Source of the DNA: a virus
Length of the DNA stretch: 40,098 nt
Strand: one strand, 5' to 3'
IMG/VR virus record: IMGVR_UViG_3300045741_000359
Coordinates: 1 to 40,098 of that record
This document shows, one piece after another, positions 1 through 40,098 of the stretch (the stretch's first letter is position 1; every line of letters begins with the position of its first letter). The notes beneath the pieces were generated by a model that saw nothing but the letters and a program-made list of their open reading frames with translations, was not told the origin of the DNA and made no database searches. Position numbers and translations under genes: made by a program.

Positions 1-240
1 AGCGTCATGGACAGCGTCAGGGACAGCGTCTGGGACAGCGTCAGGGACAGCGTCAGGGACAGCGTCATGGCCAGCGTCATGGACAGCGTCATGGACAGCG
101 TCAGGGACAGCGTCGGGGACAGCGTCAGGGCCAGCGTCAGGGACAGCGTCGGGGCCAGCGTCGGGGACAGCGTCAGGGCCAGCGTCAGGGATAGCGTCAG
201 GGCCAGCGTCATGGACAGCGTCAGGGCCAGCGTCAGGGAC
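1..240 (+). repeat. 12-bp coding tandem repeat, left-edge part (20 units)
   Basis: Twenty consecutive 12-bp units of the form AGC GTC x y encode Ser-Val-x-(Asp/Ala). The x codon is only AGG, ATG, GGG or TGG and the y codon is GAC or GCC, with one GAT at about 190-192. Ser and Val codons never vary. The array runs to the window edge and resumes at 39905-40098, so it is one array cut by the linear break. True copy number cannot be read because an assembler may have collapsed it. Confidence 0.95.
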
Positions 241-912
241 AGCGGGTATGGTCAGCACGATGCCGCCTGGATCGCTTTCTACAATTTCTTCCGCGAAGTG
301 TGCGGGTTGCGTGAGCAGACCGAACGACTCGAAGGGCTGCGACTGATCTGCCAAAATGCCGGCTGGTTCCTTCCGCACGCGAAGATCTGCTGGATATCCG
401 AGCGCCCTTCGGTCCTCAAGCGTGACGACCGAGGCCGTCTGCACTGTGAGGACGGCCCGGCAGTGGGCTATCCCGATCGCTGGTGTATTTACGCCTGGCA
501 CGGCGTTCGCGTTTCTCAGCAAGTCATCGAGCGACCGCAAGAGCTCACCGTTGCCCAGATCCAGAAAGAAGAAAACGCAGAAGTGCGGCGAGTGATGATC
601 GATCGCTATGGGCAGGCACGCTACCTGCTGGACGCTGGCGCGAAGAAGATCGCCGAGGACGAGTTCGGCGAACTTTACAACGTCGAGGTTCCGGGCGATG
701 AGCCGCTCGTGATGATTAAGGTGTTGAACTCGACACCCGAGCCCGACGGCAGCAGCAAGCCTTACTTTCTGCGGGTGCATCCCCAACTCCGTCCCATGCT
801 TGGCGGGAGCGAGATCGGGGCGCCGCAAAAACTGACACCGCTAAACGCTGTTGCTTCGACGTTCGGTCTAACCGGCAAAGAGTACCTGAAGCGCTTGGTC
901 GCCCAGAGCTGA
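1..912 (+). CDS. DUF6745-type repeat protein, C-terminal part (gene split by window edge)
   Basis: This is the 3' portion of a gene that starts at 39656 and crosses the window boundary. About 80 residues of Ser-Val-x-Asp/Ala repeats are followed by a globular domain of about 220 residues. That domain begins GYGQHDAAWIAFYNFFREVC and continues with LHCEDGPAVGYPD, IYAWHGVRVSQQVIERP and EEN-EVRR-MIDRYG blocks, then a VPGDEPLVMIKVLNSTPEPD block. From memory this layout matches DUF6745 proteins of bacteria and phages, whose biochemical role is unknown. The frame is open from base 1, so the first in-frame ATG at 7 is a repeat codon rather than a start. Joining the two window ends directly shifts the frame; an overlap of two bases (AG) restores it. 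An HNH gene follows 23 bp downstream. Confidence 0.8.
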   Translation, partial: SVMDSVRDSVWDSVRDSVRDSVMASVMDSVMDSVRDSVGDSVRASVRDSVGASVGDSVRASVRDSVRASVMDSVRASVRDSGYGQHDAAWIAFYNFFREVCGLREQTERLEGLRLICQNAGWFLPHAKICWISERPSVLKRDDRGRLHCEDGPAVGYPDRWCIYAWHGVRVSQQVIERPQELTVAQIQKEENAEVRRVMIDRYGQARYLLDAGAKKIAEDEFGELYNVEVPGDEPLVMIKVLNSTPEPDGSSKPYFLRVHPQLRPMLGGSEIGAPQKLTPLNAVASTFGLTGKEYLKRLVAQS

Positions 913-16378: not shown

Positions 16379-19300
16379 TCATTGCTTCGGATGGGACACG
16401 AAGAAATTCCAGAAGATGTCGATCGAGTTTTGCCCGACGATCCCATTGAATGCGGGGTTATAAGGCGCCGCGCCAGTGCCTGGGGGAGTCGTCATGTCGA
16501 CGCCAGATCCGTAGTACTGATGGCCGCCATTCGCGAGCTTGTAGAACTGCACTTCCGTGCCCTTCGAGCAGCTCGAGCCTTTCTTCGAAGTCAGCGACGT
16601 CGGTGAGCCGAAGGTCGCAGTGCAGAGCGTAGAGGTGGTGTCGATGCTTGAGCAGTTGTTGCCACTCGTCCCACTCCAATAGTTGAACAGTTCGTCAGCA
16701 GAGTTGGTGACGACCGCGCCGTTGTTCACGCCACAATAGCTAAATTGCCCGTCAGACGATCCCTGCAACTGAATGACAGATACGGGCTGCGTCAGTGGGC
16801 TCGGGAAGACGAGGCCGCTGCCCGTGTTTTGCTCGAAGTAAACCGTCGCTTCTCCGCCCACTGCGGCAACAATGTCAGGATCGTCGAAGGCATAACGATA
16901 GGCACCATGGCCGCCGGCCGAGAAGCCGGTAAGGAAGAGCTGCTTTGGGTCCATGGCAGCATTCTTATACATCAGCGCCGCCATCTCTCGCGTGAAATAG
17001 CTGTCGTCGGGCGGATGGCCTTCGGTGTATGTTGCCTGGTTGAAGTAGGCGTTCCAGGTCTTGGTGCCCGTGTTCTGCGGCCAGCCTTGCGGGTAGATGG
17101 TGATGAACCCGACATTGTTCGACTTGGTCGTCCATCCGGTCGCAGATCCTTCGAACAGTCCGCCGCCGGCACCGTGGTAATAGATCACCACCGCGGGATG
17201 CGTTACCAGGTGCGGGTTATTCACTCGCATGGTACGAGTTATCGAGCCGAATGAGTCAGTATAAGTGATGGTGCAATCCTGCTGACCGACTAAGGCGAAG
17301 TTGCACGAGGTTGTCGGCGTGAACAGGTAGAGATATTGCAGCGGCGTTCCATTGCCGAGGCCGGCATTCACCGAGATGCTGGCAGGGCCAACGGATCCGG
17401 CGGGAGCGACCGCAGTCAGCGTCGTTGCATTGACGAACGTGGTGGCAGCCGCTGTCGTCCCGAAGCTGACTACACTTGCAGCTGTGAAGTTGGTGCCAGT
17501 GACGGTGACGAGTTCGCCGCCAGCAGCGAAGCCTTGGGTCGGAAAGATCGCGGTTATCGTCGGAGTTCCGCCGCCGCCACCTCCGCCGCCAGGCGTGGGG
17601 TGCGTGGGATCGATGAAGGCGAGATCCATGGCGACAATGTCCGGCCCCATCATGGTGCCGTCGTCCGCTCCGCCTGGCCGGCCGGCTGCGTAGAAGCTCG
17701 GCCCTTTGCAGGGCGCGACATTCGACGTGCAGAGCACAAAGTCGTGATAATCGTGGCCGGTAGACAAGTTCCCATCGTCAAAAGCGATAATGTCACTGAA
17801 ATTGAGCGTGGACGGGAAAGTAACCGTGTTCGGGTCGACGACGGTGGCGACCACCGGGCCGCTGAATGTGAACTTGGTCTGCGGAGGCCCAATTAGGTGG
17901 TAGTGAATCAGGGCCTGCATCGTCGCACCGTTAGGAATATCGTGGAGAATTACCGTTGCAGTCGCGGTCACGCCATTCGTAGCCAACCCACTAATCGTTC
18001 CACCCGCATCCGGGTTGGGGAACACATAATTCCCAGCCAGTCCCATGCAGTTTGCGTCCGGCACTCCGCTGCAAGCGATCGAGGTCGGTCCGAAGATAGT
18101 CGTTGGTGGCGTAATGCCAGCAGATCCTGGTGTTAGCCATTCAGTGAACTTCGATGCCAATCGCCCTTGAAACACGATGTGATGAATCTCGGCCGTCGAC
18201 GTAGCCCAAGCCTTCAATTCGGACGGAGTACCTTCGGCTGTGCCCGAGGTCAGCATGCCGAATACCGATCCGTTTTCGGCGGTGAAGATGAGGTTCCTGT
18301 GGACGACATCGCGCAGTGAAGGCGCAGCGCCGTTCTGCGGGCTGGACTGCATCATGGCGCCAGCCGAGTTGCGCATGTACACCGCATTGTGATTCAGGTA
18401 GAGATGTCGTGGCGAGCCCTGGTGATTCACCAACTGACAGGTTGCGGTGGCATTTGGCTGCACGGTGGCCCAGGGATAAGTGATGGCAAGCGAGTGAGGA
18501 TTGCCTAGCGCCGCCGCCACGGCTTGCGAGACGTTGAAGGTCGAATTCGAGCAAGACAGCGTCTGCACCCACTCGCCCGGCCGGATCTCGAGTCCTCCGC
18601 CGCAGGGTGAGCGCAATCCGCAGTTGGTGTCGGGACAGTTGGTAGTGATGTTGCCGAAAGCATCCGAGACTGAAGTGCAGGGGAAACTCGCTGTGCCCCC
18701 GGTGGAGGATGTGTTGACGCCAGGCGCGCCAACGTAGATGAACGATGTAGCACTCAACACCTGAAAGATCACAAAGGTGCCATCGAAGCTATTACTGGAT
18801 CCCGTAACGACAGTCGATAGCCCAGGCACCAGTTGCGGCGGCGCGGCGGAGAGCACGATGGTCACCAGACCGGTGACTGCATCTCGGGTCTGGCTAGTGA
18901 TGGTGGCCGAGTCGCCGCCAAACTTCTGGTTCTGTGCCAGCATCGGGAAGCCTTGCGCGCTAACCGTGCCTCCGGTTTTCGCGAAGCGGCTGGATCCGAT
19001 ATCGTAGGCCAGGTTGTTGTAGATCGATAGAAAGTCCGCACCCAGCGAAGGCGATTGGCCATTGCCTGATCCGTCGGAGCCGCCATCGATGCCGTTAAAG
19101 AACTGTGCGGCAGCGTTGTGCAGATTGTTGCGCATGGTGATGTCGTGAATGGTCTGATCACCATTCGCGAAGCGCACACTCCAGAGTTGGTCTCCGCCAG
19201 CCTGCCCATCAGGCCAGGTGTTCTTGAAGTGGTTCTTTTCGATCAGGTGCCGACAGCCGGTCTTCTCTTCGTAAAGATTCTTGATGTTCCACGTTTTGCC

Positions 19301-20884
19301 ATTGTGGAACCAATTGATATCCTTCGAAAAGTAGTTGCCGGCGATCCAGATATCGCAGTCGGTTTCGATGTTCGCGATACTCGAGAAACTGCCGCCCCAG
19401 ATGATGTTCTCGCTGGCGGCGCGAATATACGAGTTCGAGATCTGATAGATCCCGGCGCCATTGTTGCCACTGAAGCACTGCGAGTCGGTGCCATTGAAGT
19501 GGATCTGATCGCACACCGAGTCGGTAACCGCAATGTCGTGCCCCTGCAGCTGCACCGCATGCTGGATGTCCTGCGTGTCAGAGCCGTGCAGATAGGCGCG
19601 TTTCAGGAAGATGTCGTGAGGCTGCTGGTTGGCGAGCGTCTGCGTGGAATCGTTGCGGCCGAATTCAGCCAGAACGAAGGTCTGCGTGACACCTGTGTTG
19701 GGCGCGAGCTCGACATCAGAGATCTGGTAGTGGTGTGCGACGTTGCCGTTTAGATCGGGGGCATCGGTAAAGATCGCGGCGGAGGTAACGCTGTTGCCAG
19801 TTGACTGCGCGATCCAGCGCTGGGCATTGTCGATCGCGTTCTGGCCTTGCTCGAAGTAGAACTGGGCGCACTGCCAACCAAAACCAGTCGAGGAGACTGA
19901 GGTTGGGCACATTGGAGCTGTGATCGGGGCGCTTGAATCAATCGAAATACAGCTCGTCGCCGACGGTGGGCGAATTGGAAGATGAATGTTTTGTACCGCG
20001 ATCCCCGGCGTGATGCGGCAGAGCCACTCACTCGTCGAGGCCACGCCATCAGCTAGGCATTGCTGCAGGCCTGCGCTGCTGCCGGCGTAATCGCCAGGTG
20101 CAGTTGGACACTGCGAGTCGCCGGAATTGCAAACCTTCTTCACGACGGCCGGCGCCGGGCATTCATTCGGGTTCGGGTAAGCGCGCGGCAGTTCAGCGAG
20201 GTTGCCCGGAACGATGACTGCCGGGGCGACGGTGAACGTAAACGACACCGGCGAGCTGGTTACGGGCGGTACGGAAGAGTCGACCACCTGAATGGCGACG
20301 GTGTAAGTAGCATCGCTGCCAGGTGCTGGCGTGCCGCCGAGGATCCCGGTATTGAGGTTCAGCGTGAGGCCTGAGGGCAGTGATCCGCTGAAGATCGACC
20401 AGAAGTAAGGCAGGATGCCGTTGGTAGCCTGCATCTGGACGCTGTAGGGCACGCCCACCTGGCCGTCGGGCAACGCACTGGTGGTAATCCTCACCGGAGG
20501 TGGCGGAAGCCCCGCACAAGTCAGCTGTGCCACCGCAGAGCGGCCTGCCTGCGCTGCCGTAATGATGGCGACGCCAGCGGCATTGCAGGTAAACGTTGCG
20601 GGGCTCGCTGAAAGCGACGCAATCAGTACATTGCTCGAACTCCACCCCGCGGAGCCGGTGATGTCCTGTTGGGTTCCATCCGAAAAGGTTCCGATGGCGA
20701 CGTAATCCTGGGTAGCGCCAATCTGCACGTTCGCCGTGGTCGGCGTGACTGTGATCAGAGATAGGCTGATCGAGGAGGCTCCCAGCTTGCCGGCGCCGTG
20801 TACTGCGCCTTTCCCGTTGACGACAGCCACCTGCTGCGACCGAGCAACCAGACTAAGCAGCAGCACTAGGAAAAGTCTCTTCAC
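16379..20884 (-). CDS. Giant secreted-type tailspike with Ig domains, beta-helix and C-terminal esterase
   Basis: Translated from GTG 20884 (GTGA overlap) this is 1501 residues. A Sec-type leader (MKRLFLVLLLSLVARSQQ) is followed by a BIG2-like domain (ITVTPTTANVQIGATQDYVA, about 37-115) and a putative-Ig domain (TTSALPDGQVGVPYSVQ, about 130-220). Next is a long right-handed beta-helix-like region (about 290-980, many HDI/NIH/DIWIAGNYF rungs), a Gly run and an IPT/TIG domain (ITAIFPTQGFAAGGELVTV, about 1090-1180). The final 285 residues resemble CE1/PHB-depolymerase (LpqC-like) esterases: VVIYYHGAGG oxyanion loop, GFSAGGHGAY nucleophile elbow, GSSDGQFSY and GGHQYYG as likely Asp and His. Probable function: recognise and degrade or deacylate host surface polysaccharide. 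Confidence 0.8.
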   Translation of the reverse strand: MKRLFLVLLLSLVARSQQVAVVNGKGAVHGAGKLGASSISLSLITVTPTTANVQIGATQDYVAIGTFSDGTQQDITGSAGWSSSNVLIASLSASPATFTCNAAGVAIITAAQAGRSAVAQLTCAGLPPPPVRITTSALPDGQVGVPYSVQMQATNGILPYFWSIFSGSLPSGLTLNLNTGILGGTPAPGSDATYTVAIQVVDSSVPPVTSSPVSFTFTVAPAVIVPGNLAELPRAYPNPNECPAPAVVKKVCNSGDSQCPTAPGDYAGSSAGLQQCLADGVASTSEWLCRITPGIAVQNIHLPIRPPSATSCISIDSSAPITAPMCPTSVSSTGFGWQCAQFYFEQGQNAIDNAQRWIAQSTGNSVTSAAIFTDAPDLNGNVAHHYQISDVELAPNTGVTQTFVLAEFGRNDSTQTLANQQPHDIFLKRAYLHGSDTQDIQHAVQLQGHDIAVTDSVCDQIHFNGTDSQCFSGNNGAGIYQISNSYIRAASENIIWGGSFSSIANIETDCDIWIAGNYFSKDINWFHNGKTWNIKNLYEEKTGCRHLIEKNHFKNTWPDGQAGGDQLWSVRFANGDQTIHDITMRNNLHNAAAQFFNGIDGGSDGSGNGQSPSLGADFLSIYNNLAYDIGSSRFAKTGGTVSAQGFPMLAQNQKFGGDSATITSQTRDAVTGLVTIVLSAAPPQLVPGLSTVVTGSSNSFDGTFVIFQVLSATSFIYVGAPGVNTSSTGGTASFPCTSVSDAFGNITTNCPDTNCGLRSPCGGGLEIRPGEWVQTLSCSNSTFNVSQAVAAALGNPHSLAITYPWATVQPNATATCQLVNHQGSPRHLYLNHNAVYMRNSAGAMMQSSPQNGAAPSLRDVVHRNLIFTAENGSVFGMLTSGTAEGTPSELKAWATSTAEIHHIVFQGRLASKFTEWLTPGSAGITPPTTIFGPTSIACSGVPDANCMGLAGNYVFPNPDAGGTISGLATNGVTATATVILHDIPNGATMQALIHYHLIGPPQTKFTFSGPVVATVVDPNTVTFPSTLNFSDIIAFDDGNLSTGHDYHDFVLCTSNVAPCKGPSFYAAGRPGGADDGTMMGPDIVAMDLAFIDPTHPTPGGGGGGGGTPTITAIFPTQGFAAGGELVTVTGTNFTAASVVSFGTTAAATTFVNATTLTAVAPAGSVGPASISVNAGLGNGTPLQYLYLFTPTTSCNFALVGQQDCTITYTDSFGSITRTMRVNNPHLVTHPAVVIYYHGAGGGLFEGSATGWTTKSNNVGFITIYPQGWPQNTGTKTWNAYFNQATYTEGHPPDDSYFTREMAALMYKNAAMDPKQLFLTGFSAGGHGAYRYAFDDPDIVAAVGGEATVYFEQNTGSGLVFPSPLTQPVSVIQLQGSSDGQFSYCGVNNGAVVTNSADELFNYWSGTSGNNCSSIDTTSTLCTATFGSPTSLTSKKGSSCSKGTEVQFYKLANGGHQYYGSGVDMTTPPGTGAAPYNPAFNGIVGQNSIDIFWNFFVSHPKQ

Positions 20885-22044
20885 TGGTTCACGACTCCGA
20901 GATCGGTAGCCCACGCAACGGTTCCGTCCGTGGCAAACTGCTGAGCAGAACACGTCGAGGCGATCGGGCCGACGGTCATTCCACCATGAAGGTTTACCGG
21001 CCACACAAAGGTGCGCGATCCCGTTGCATCCTGGCACACGATGAAGACAATCTGTGTAGTCAGCGGTGCGGCCGGCACATTAGCGAGTGTCGATGAAGTC
21101 ACATTGCCAGTCAGCGTGATCTTAAATGTGGTTGCGGTTGAAAGATCAAACGTGGGCGTTGCCGAAAAGCTGACAGTCGCAAAGCTCGAACCGGCTCCCG
21201 TGCTGCAGGGTTTATAAGTCTGATCACCATACAGACATGTGGTCGAATTTGCTGAGCCGGAGCCAAGCTGCGCCGTCGGGACGTGGGCGGAAGCATCGAG
21301 AGCTGTGTAACCATTGGCCACGCCATAGCGGGAGCGCAATTCGATGGCGGCAAACGATCCGCCGAAAGGATAGAGGCCGATCAAGCCGCTCTGCGAGCAT
21401 AAGTGATAGGCGCCGGACGAACCAGGTGCGCCGCAGGATCCGGCGTTGTCGAAGAGCTCGAGATTCGATTCGCCGCCGCCGCTCGAGATCAGACTCGTGC
21501 CTGTAAGCGAGCCGCCGAAGACGGTGGAGTGATTGATGGTGGCGGGAATAAGCGAATCAAGTAGTGTACCGGTCGTGATCTTTGCAGCATCGAGGGATGG
21601 AATATCCCCAGCGATGATGCCGGTATGGTTCCAAGTCGTACCACTCCAGCGAAAGAAATCTCCCGAAGCGGGAGCTCCTGACTGCACTGGCTGGTTTTGG
21701 ATCCTGATGACAGTGAGGCTTCCCGAGGATCCCGTCACGTCACCGCCCGTGGCGAAGCCGCCGGAATTGCAACTCATACAGGCCCAGCCTGAGGTGTGCG
21801 AACACGTCGACGTAGTGCAGCCATAGACTCCGACGGCATTTGATCCATCAGTTGCGATCAGCGACACGACGTTGCCGACGCGCCCGTTGTCAGGCAGCGT
21901 CGTGACTTGTGGCGGCTGGCCCTGTAACTGCGTGTTAGTCGGCCCCTGGAAGGCGTACACTTCGCCCGAAATCACCGAACCAAGAAACGGCAGCCAGGGA
22001 GCTAGGCCGAGCACCAATGCAATGACTATGAGGCGTCTTTTCAT
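20881..22044 (-). CDS. Secreted-type tail fibre protein
   Basis: The 387-residue protein has a signal-like leader (MKRRLIVIALVLGLAPWLPF and further hydrophobic residues to about 30). The body is a repeating beta/collagen-free fibre with typical phage fibre phrases: GGDVTGSSGSLTVIRIQNQP, SGDFFRWSGTTWNHT, GDIPSLDAAKITTGTL and a C-terminal beta domain (ATTFKITLTGNVTSS, TGSRTFVWPVNLHGG). The GDIPSLDAAKITTG shaft motif is widespread in phage fibres. It overlaps the upstream beta-helix gene by one base and the giant spike by four, so the three are co-expressed. Confidence 0.75.
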   Translation of the reverse strand: MKRRLIVIALVLGLAPWLPFLGSVISGEVYAFQGPTNTQLQGQPPQVTTLPDNGRVGNVVSLIATDGSNAVGVYGCTTSTCSHTSGWACMSCNSGGFATGGDVTGSSGSLTVIRIQNQPVQSGAPASGDFFRWSGTTWNHTGIIAGDIPSLDAAKITTGTLLDSLIPATINHSTVFGGSLTGTSLISSGGGESNLELFDNAGSCGAPGSSGAYHLCSQSGLIGLYPFGGSFAAIELRSRYGVANGYTALDASAHVPTAQLGSGSANSTTCLYGDQTYKPCSTGAGSSFATVSFSATPTFDLSTATTFKITLTGNVTSSTLANVPAAPLTTQIVFIVCQDATGSRTFVWPVNLHGGMTVGPIASTCSAQQFATDGTVAWATDLGVVNQ

Positions 22045-38343: not shown

Positions 38344-38963
38344 CCGTGGGACTGGAGTACGCGAAGCGCGGAGTCGGGCCGGTCCGCGGCCTGCCGTGCG
38401 TTGGCGGTTGCGGCTGCAACACGGACCGCATGATCGACCGCGATGATGACCGAGGCAAGGTTCCGCTGTGTGTGTTCTGCGAAGACGGCGTCGCCTGCCC
38501 GGTGGCCCATCGCAACCATGCGGTCTCGATTCCAGTCTCGGCACCGCCGCCGGCAACGGTCGCGAAGATTCATCACGAACTGCGCAAGAAGATTCGAACG
38601 ACGGAGGGACCAGTGAAACAACCGAGCAAGAAGATTCGAACGACGGAGGGACCAGTGAAACAACCGAACGGCCAGCGCATCTGTGCGGGATTCGATCGTC
38701 CCTGCGCCAATCAGCTCACCAAGCGATCGCGCACCAACCTGTGCGGGCGCTGCCGCGCACGCAAGCACTACCGCGAAAAACATCCTGATGGAGAGAGGCG
38801 CGACACCACCAGGACGCACGTGGAGAACAAGCAGCGCGTCCCGGCCGCCGCCGGACGGGTCACCATCGAAGTGAACGAAGAGCAGCTCAATAAGCTCCTG
38901 CTAGGCTGGCCTCTAGAAGACAAGGCACGGATCGCAAACGCCTGGCTAGCAGGGAGAATCTAG
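38340..38963 (+). CDS. Two-domain Cys-rich early protein with internal 42-bp duplication
   Basis: ATG 38340 (AGGAGGACGAGCG just upstream) encodes 207 residues. The N-terminal domain (1-75) has CVGGCGC and PLCVFCEDGVACP, a Zn-binding pattern. A duplicated 14-residue linker (KKIRTTEGPVKQPS, then KKIRTTEGPVKQPN) leads to a second Cys domain (ICAGFDRPCANQLTK, NLCGRCRARKHYREKHP) and a helical C terminus (EVNEEQLNKLLLGWPLEDKA). Each linker copy contains GGAGGGACCA-GTG, a good ribosome site plus start, so the C-terminal domain (from GTG 38655) may also be made alone. The arrangement looks like two ancestral genes fused through the duplication. Confidence 0.65.
   Translation: MTVGLEYAKRGVGPVRGLPCVGGCGCNTDRMIDRDDDRGKVPLCVFCEDGVACPVAHRNHAVSIPVSAPPPATVAKIHHELRKKIRTTEGPVKQPSKKIRTTEGPVKQPNGQRICAGFDRPCANQLTKRSRTNLCGRCRARKHYREKHPDGERRDTTRTHVENKQRVPAAAGRVTIEVNEEQLNKLLLGWPLEDKARIANAWLAGRI
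38586..38669 (+). repeat. 42-bp tandem duplication, two copies
   Basis: Copies at 38586-38627 and 38628-38669 differ at one base near the end (AGC versus AAC). Each contains an in-frame GGAGGG ribosome site and GTG codon. Recent duplication is implied by the near identity. Confidence 0.9.
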
Positions 38964-39285: not shown

Positions 39286-39594
39286 ATGAAGAAGCTGTAC
39301 AGGCAGGGAGATGTTCTGATCCGGCAGATCGAGTCGATACCGACGCAAAAATCGACCAAGCGAGTGGACGGCGTGCTGGCCTATGGTGAAGTCACCGGGC
39401 ATGCGCACCAGGTGGAAGACAAAAGTGCAGCTGAGGTGCTGGAGATCGAAAGCGGTCTCTACCTGCGCGTGGGCGAAGAAGGCGTGCGCATCGTACACGA
39501 AGAGCACGCGCCGATCACGCTGCCCGCCGGCAACTACGAAGTCACCATTCAACGCGAGTACGCTCCGGCTGACATTCGGAACGTAGCCGACTGA
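39286..39594 (+). CDS. Small conserved GEVTGHAH/HEEH protein
   Basis: The 102-residue product starts behind AAGGAGG. Signature segments are RQGDVLIRQIESIP, VLAYGEVTGHAHQVED, EEGVRIVHEEHAPITLPAG and NYEVTIQREYAPADIRNVAD. I recognise this family of small beta-rich proteins from bacteria and phages, commonly found beside DUF6745 repeat proteins, as it is here. The invariant His in GHAH and HEEH suggest a metal site. Function unknown. Confidence 0.78.
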   Translation: MKKLYRQGDVLIRQIESIPTQKSTKRVDGVLAYGEVTGHAHQVEDKSAAEVLEIESGLYLRVGEEGVRIVHEEHAPITLPAGNYEVTIQREYAPADIRNVAD

Positions 39595-39655: not shown

Positions 39656-40098
39656 ATGGCGATCACCAAAGCAAAACGACTTGAGAAACTCACCAAAGCC
39701 CAGCAGTCGCGCATGGTCGAGTGGCGCGGTGCCTGGTTAGCTATCGGATTATCGACTGAGCCGGCAAATCGCGCCGAGGCCGAGCGCGGCGTGCGGCTCG
39801 CCTATGAAGCCGCGGGGCTGAAGCCGCCCGCACGGATCGTGTGGTGTGGCTCACCACTCTCAGAAGGACTGACCCGCGCGATCGTGATCGGCCTCACAAA
39901 GGCCAGCGTCATGGCCAGCGTCAGGGACAGCGTCAGGGCCAGCGTCGGGGCCAGCGTCATGGCCAGCGTCAGGGACAGCGTCAGGGCCAGCGTCGGGGAC
40001 AGCGTCTGGGACAGCGTCATGGACAGCGTCAGGGCCAGCGTCAGGGACAGCGTCGGGGCCAGCGTCGGGGACAGCGTCAGGGACAGCGTCGGGGACAG
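39656..40098 (+). CDS. DUF6745-type repeat protein, N-terminal part (continues at position 1)
   Basis: ATG 39656 (GAGAGG 8 bp upstream) opens an 83-residue N-terminal domain (RLEKLTKAQQSRMVEWRGAW, LAIGLSTEPANRAEAERGVR, AYEAAGLKPPARIVWCGSPL, SEGLTRAIVIGLTKA) typical of DUF6745 proteins. Sixteen Ser-Val-x-Asp/Ala repeats follow to the window edge. The C-terminal domain is encoded at 1-912. The total is about 450 residues for the copy number shown, but both repeat count and frame across the junction depend on the assembly. Confidence 0.8.
   Translation, partial: MAITKAKRLEKLTKAQQSRMVEWRGAWLAIGLSTEPANRAEAERGVRLAYEAAGLKPPARIVWCGSPLSEGLTRAIVIGLTKASVMASVRDSVRASVGASVMASVRDSVRASVGDSVWDSVMDSVRASVRDSVGASVGDSVRDSVGD
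39905..40098 (+). repeat. 12-bp coding tandem repeat, right-edge part (16 units)
   Basis: Sixteen units of AGC GTC (AGG/ATG/GGG/TGG)(GAC/GCC) plus two bases run to the end of the window, continuing the array that opens it. Ser and Val codons are invariant. Confidence 0.95.

Follow-up and report, generated by a model that had tools for sequence, protein, structure and literature searches.

Here, we describe a coding tandem repeat in a phage gene that is divided between the two ends of IMG/VR virus record IMGVR_UViG_3300045741_000359 (positions 1 to 40,098; this whole stretch of 40,098 nucleotides is called the window). This coding variable-number tandem repeat is situated between the N-terminal and DUF6745 domains of a phage protein. 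It probably turns over fast, while selection maintains a residue mixture at two slots of its four-residue unit; most of the evidence comes from related arrays in other phages.

Results

At the right end of the window, 16 full 12-bp units occupy positions 39905-40096 (plus strand) with the pattern AGCGTC[AGT][GT]GG[AC]C, encoding Ser-Val-[R/M/G/W]-[D/A], and are followed by 'AG' at 40097-40098; at the left end, 20 full units occupy positions 1-240 (plus strand). Tandem Repeats Finder scored the two arrays at 376 and 278, far above chance. The original prediction of 12-bp units with fixed AGC GTC, R/M/G/W at the third codon, D/A at the fourth and one silent change near position 190 was confirmed on recounting. 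All 36 full units open with AGC GTC (Ser-Val), codon 3 is AGG (18 units), ATG (8), GGG (8) or TGG (2), and codon 4 is GAC (22), GCC (13) or GAT (1, at 190-192, the sole silent variant). Variation is thus found at unit nucleotides 7 (A/G/T), 8 (G/T) and 11 (A/C), with a single T at 12, and makes up 8 unit types. The earlier figure of about 36 units holds as a count of full units (16 + 20) and not as a total or a continuous order, since the record ends cut the array inside the gene. Simply joining the window ends (GACAG to AGCGTC) is out of register, and a 2-bp overlap or missing units restores the fit. Antisense open reading frames (ORFs) over the array (1-828 and 39802-40098, minus strand) were set aside; the GC-rich unit is also free of stop codons on that strand.

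It had also been argued that drift would leave silent changes in such an array. For the window by itself this reasoning falls short: the unit types are explained by about 5 point-mutation events, 7 of the 36 point changes that a unit can undergo leave the protein unchanged, and the probability of at most one silent change among 5 events is 0.75. The window array alone does not prove selection. A recent clonal expansion with shuffling of units, in which no selection for diversity acts and the scarcity of silent changes reflects youth and a small number of mutations, is sufficient for it. As the 36 units are non-independent and go back to about 5 events, the argument for selection must come from relatives.

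Relatives were collected with an array-free profile of the DUF6745 domain, yielding 80 viral and 80 bacterial loci. An array stands at the same place in 70 of the 80 viral loci, and an array of this type occurs in 4 of the 80 bacterial loci, all of them in metagenome-assembled genome (MAG) or single-amplified genome (SAG) records. The four-residue types include SV[WRG][DA], QV[WRG][DA], QV[WRG][EA], QL[WRG][DG], NL[WRG][DA], AV[RGD][GDV] and others, and two loci (L002 and L003) have three-residue A[RL][DA] units. In the closest relative (L149, domain 73% identical), 70 units are present where the contig is cut off, and L131 has only about one unit. A set gathered by DNA pattern was biased to AGC GTC codons and was left out of the count of silent and non-silent variants, for which the protein-profile set was used.

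In this set, the 63 arrays of at least 10 units hold 30 silent and 302 protein-changing variants, where 26% silent would be expected by sites; the corresponding p = 1e-14 treats arrays as separate and ignores relatedness, so that it overstates the certainty. The median within-array diversity is 0 at silent sites and 0.145 at non-silent sites, and 44 of the 63 arrays are free of silent variants. With the window included, 97% of arrays are polymorphic at codon 3 position 1, 98% at codon 4 position 2 and 3-27% at the remaining unit positions (third positions 3-17%, counted with at least 2 deviating units per array). Silent variation at normal levels, when looked for, was not seen in canonical arrays; a minority of degenerate arrays (e.g. 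L079, L109, L115, L143, L150) does carry silent variants. One degenerate array (L081, about 145 units) has 25 non-silent and 5 silent extra variants and is possibly old, with slower turnover.

In nearly all arrays the two slots draw on the same few residues. W, R and G occur side by side in each of the 57 canonical arrays (28/34/36%), and codon 4 encodes D in 47% and A in 47% of cases. Near-even mixtures of this kind, found across many codon dialects, disfavour a neutral expansion, as does the ratio of 30 silent to 302 non-silent variants. Fast turnover and the uniformity of units at silent sites within an array do fit a clonal expansion, which we nevertheless consider unlikely as the whole explanation. 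Within units, R pairs preferentially with D (z 5.4), as G does with A (z 4.5), R is avoided with A (z -6.0), and neighbouring W-W falls below expectation (z -2.8); this pairing and the avoided W neighbours point to the protein level. In a toy simulation, no run (0%) with neutral evolution or with purifying selection only retained W, R and G jointly, against 92% with selection for the mixture, a model result that agrees in direction only.

That two unit nucleotides hold most of the variation in nearly all arrays could also be the work of a mutator directed to, or acting locally on, codon 3 position 1 and codon 4 position 2, like that of diversity-generating retroelements or another site-specific one. 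The alleles present argue against this. Among 50 arrays with NGG codons, the first base is T+G+A in 31, T+G+C in 16 and all four bases in one, so that T, G and one Arg allele occur together in 47 arrays and the silent pair AGG/CGG in one. A base-randomising mutator would mix A and C, both of which encode Arg; this is not expected if Trp, Arg and Gly are selected for and silent states are homogenised. Where the third base of the variable codon is C, T is absent from the first position and the Cys codon TGC is found in 0 of 154 units, while T is frequent in NGG arrays. At codon 4 position 2, the allele set is A/C, and not all bases, in 49 of the 63 arrays. No RVT_1 reverse transcriptase was matched in 25 records including the window, a negative limited by the incompleteness of records. 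We regard directed mutagenesis as very unlikely.

The high uniformity of the unit within a phage, with its constant core AGCGTC, might instead mark an element that acts as DNA, in binding, recombination or replication, with its protein reading secondary. However, the protein pattern is kept while the DNA differs between arrays (TCG GTC, TCC GTG, CAG GTC, AAC CTC; third bases C, T or G), unbroken relatives keep the reading frame, and the variable sites are the amino-acid-changing sites; we give this explanation hardly any weight. Between arrays, silent choices extend to Ser AGC/TCG/TCC/TCT/AGT, Val GTC/GTG/GTT, Arg AGG/CGG and C, T or G as third base of the acid/Ala codon, and within arrays they are near-uniform (third-base purity 97-99%). 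On a tree of the DUF6745 domain (78 tips), at least 49 changes of dialect and at least 16 changes of Arg codon are counted, both being lower bounds on a tree with 29 of 75 inner branches weakly supported. Since a change between AGC and TCN needs more than one silent step, these changes suggest that arrays were sometimes replaced or founded anew. The array codons are non-preferred ones (in the window genome, CGC makes up 48% and AGG 7% of Arg codons, and GGC makes up 57% and GGG 14% of Gly codons); they are the ones to which a single change in one founder unit can lead.

Units are gained, lost and reordered between close relatives, as in coding variable-number tandem repeats, with in-frame 12-bp units differing in number and order. 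Two records (L084 and L085) have 30 and 27 units between flanks that are 99% and 95% identical (95% on the C-terminal side), and the similarity of their unit order is no greater than that of shuffles. Elsewhere, six units are common beside a near-identical flank before the order diverges (L030 and L057, of which L030 is cut by the contig end), and the same is seen with eight units in another protein type (L013 and L052); records 99-100% identical in one flank carry different arrays. Of the three processes that the original prediction had offered, expansion with shuffling and selection are jointly supported by the relatives (flank-identical records differ; 302 non-silent variants), and directed change is disfavoured (AGG/CGG together in 1 of 50 arrays).

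At least 6 further phage records have, like the window, both of their ends within the array (IMG/VR pairs of ends L010/L037, L012/L021, L019/L025, L023/L048, L039/L040 and L042/L061), so that they probably represent genomes, circular or permuted, that were broken at the repeat. Such ends, together with an exact 62 bp shared by both window halves, could also mean that the variation of units is largely an artefact of assembly, from mixed strains or collapsed repeats. Against this, pairs of records from the same phage (L069/L082 and L093/L094) contain identical 33-unit and 39-unit arrays in differently numbered metagenome records, which may still share samples, and the M. abscessus prophage record prophiGD102-1 has 46 units of the same logic with no silent variant. 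We hold an assembly artefact to be highly improbable.

The record is classed as linear in IMG/VR, and both of its ends lie inside the array. The 5' part of the DUF6745 gene (39656-40098, plus strand) is an ORF open at its 3' end, with the N-terminal domain at 39656-39904 and then the first 16 units. The 3' part (1-912, plus strand) carries the end of the array and the C-terminal DUF6745 domain (about 220-792 by Pfam match). Residues 74-264 of this left ORF match PF20530 (DUF6745) with 195.3 bits (E 9.3e-58, profile positions 1-183 of 206), above the Pfam gathering score of 27 bits, and the N-terminal region is 53-68% identical to relatives that continue into array and DUF6745. In unbroken relatives, the gene order is RQGDVL gene, N-terminal domain, array, DUF6745, with the last three in one gene, so that the window ends are halves of one gene.

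The RQGDVL partner gene (39286-39594, plus strand; 102 aa, phrog_27831) is directly upstream of the DUF6745 gene; of 25 related records, 23 have it together with the array gene. In L014 and L105, an RQGDVL-like segment is fused to the DUF6745 C-terminus. Bacterial DUF6745 genes in L236 (a Methylobacterium plasmid), L006 and L008 adjoin genes of the STM4013-STM4015 families. Elsewhere in the window are a 42-bp perfect tandem duplication in an upstream ORF (38584-38667) and a 1552-aa protein with Ig-like and TIG domains (16379-21037, minus strand), probably a virion or adhesion protein. Literature searches on DUF6745, the STM4014/STM4015 neighbours, the unit peptides and phage coding repeats, which covered few subscription journals, found no description of these arrays and no paper on the RQGDVL and DUF6745 protein pair.

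Similar repeats occur in other phage proteins. SV[WRG][DA]-like arrays are found in unrelated phage proteins (L031, L052, L054, L059) ending in an LW..G(L/I)V.S(F/Y)DG-type segment, and the N-terminus of L031 has a weak DUF7666 match below cut-off; the idea that DUF7666 proteins carry SAASNTG repeats found no support in a literature search. Short phage ORFs (L029, L056, L058) have four-residue DVxG/SVxG repeats with less uniform codons, and two of them (L029 and L058) have weak bactofilin-like matches.

In an AlphaFold2 model of a full-length relative (L073), the N-terminal and DUF6745 parts are confident, and the array has a predicted local distance difference test (pLDDT) score of about 30-40; the array modelled alone forms a helix (pLDDT 70), which is weak evidence. 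When the L073 model was compared with solved structures, no fold matched at E 0.001 and none reached a Z of 5, a negative that carries no weight as proof; a PDB sequence search with the domain profile gave no convincing match. A helical arm is weakly favoured for the array.

Discussion

Taken together, these arrays are best explained, with fairly good confidence, as fast-turning coding repeats in which selection keeps the residue mixture at two slots. Several points weigh against this reading. Selection for a mixture is inferred from the pattern of variants, the arrays are related by descent so that their counts are not fully independent, and parts of the domain tree have weak support. Metagenome assemblies, in which repeats may be collapsed or chimeric, are the source of most arrays. 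The toy simulation leaves 2.2 silent variants per array where 0.5 are observed, its rates being uncalibrated. As for a structured arm, the full-length model gives the array low pLDDT, and a single fixed geometry of four residues does not sit well with the nine-base arrays (L002 and L003).

Slippage or unequal recombination would add, delete and homogenise units, and an array may occasionally collapse and be refounded from one or few units. Point mutations would arise anywhere in the unit, the silent ones being lost or fixed array-wide, and selection at the protein level would keep both the Ser-Val frame (or Gln-Val, Gln-Leu, Asn-Leu) and a balanced mixture of W/R/G and D/A (or E/A, D/G). The two variable nucleotides would not be targets of a mutator. 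The array may take the form of an arm that is extended, perhaps helical, and variable in length, and its mixture of aromatic, basic and acidic side chains might bind a partner multivalently. Since order turns over fast and composition is kept, exact order may count for less than composition and than a near-neutral charge in each unit. That the array is a multivalent, perhaps helical arm is a guess, clearly more likely to fail than to hold. Slightly more doubtful still is the generalization that a widespread phage family repeatedly builds arrays of four-residue units, with a fixed alphabet (W/R/G, acid/Ala) at two slots, as a fast-changing combinatorial or compositional recognition arm, retroelement-free and through turnover and selection.

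These arrays serve as a natural single-nucleotide test of selection against mutation bias, as the silent alternatives A and C are nearly mutually exclusive and the amino-acid-changing T, G and one Arg codon coexist nearly everywhere. Many dialects with one residue alphabet suggest a strong, recurrent demand on the protein in many phage lineages, and the binding target of the putative arm, once known, could bring to light a new field of conflict between phage and host or among phages. In addition, the array accounts for assembly breaks at this gene in several such phage genomes.

The amino acid tandem repeats (aaTRs) of archaeal Borgs (PMC9879509) are likewise coding tandem repeats of mobile elements, with lengths that are multiples of three, fast evolution and independent origins. 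Unlike the window array with its several unit types, they are described as perfect repeats (one example has a synonymous single-nucleotide polymorphism) and commonly disordered; in the phage arrays, nearly all differences between units are amino-acid changes at two slots, where one protein family uses the same residues again and again. The Borrelia vls cassettes (PMC3828179) similarly show diversifying selection among repeated copies despite concerted evolution; in the phage array, the short units are themselves translated in one gene and donor cassettes are not known. Diversity-generating retroelements likewise restrict variation to chosen codons in a protein of a phage or bacterium, but of the two marks of their targets, a reverse transcriptase was not found in the 25 records searched, and in place of outcome-blind base randomisation the alleles fit selection. 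DUF6745 (PF20530) proteins of Streptomyces and Actinomadura share a homologous C-terminal domain, and on a Streptomyces plasmid the RQGDVL gene likewise adjoins the DUF6745 gene upstream; these proteins differ in being array-free, with a non-repetitive region at the same place that opens with an SVREAVR-like sequence.
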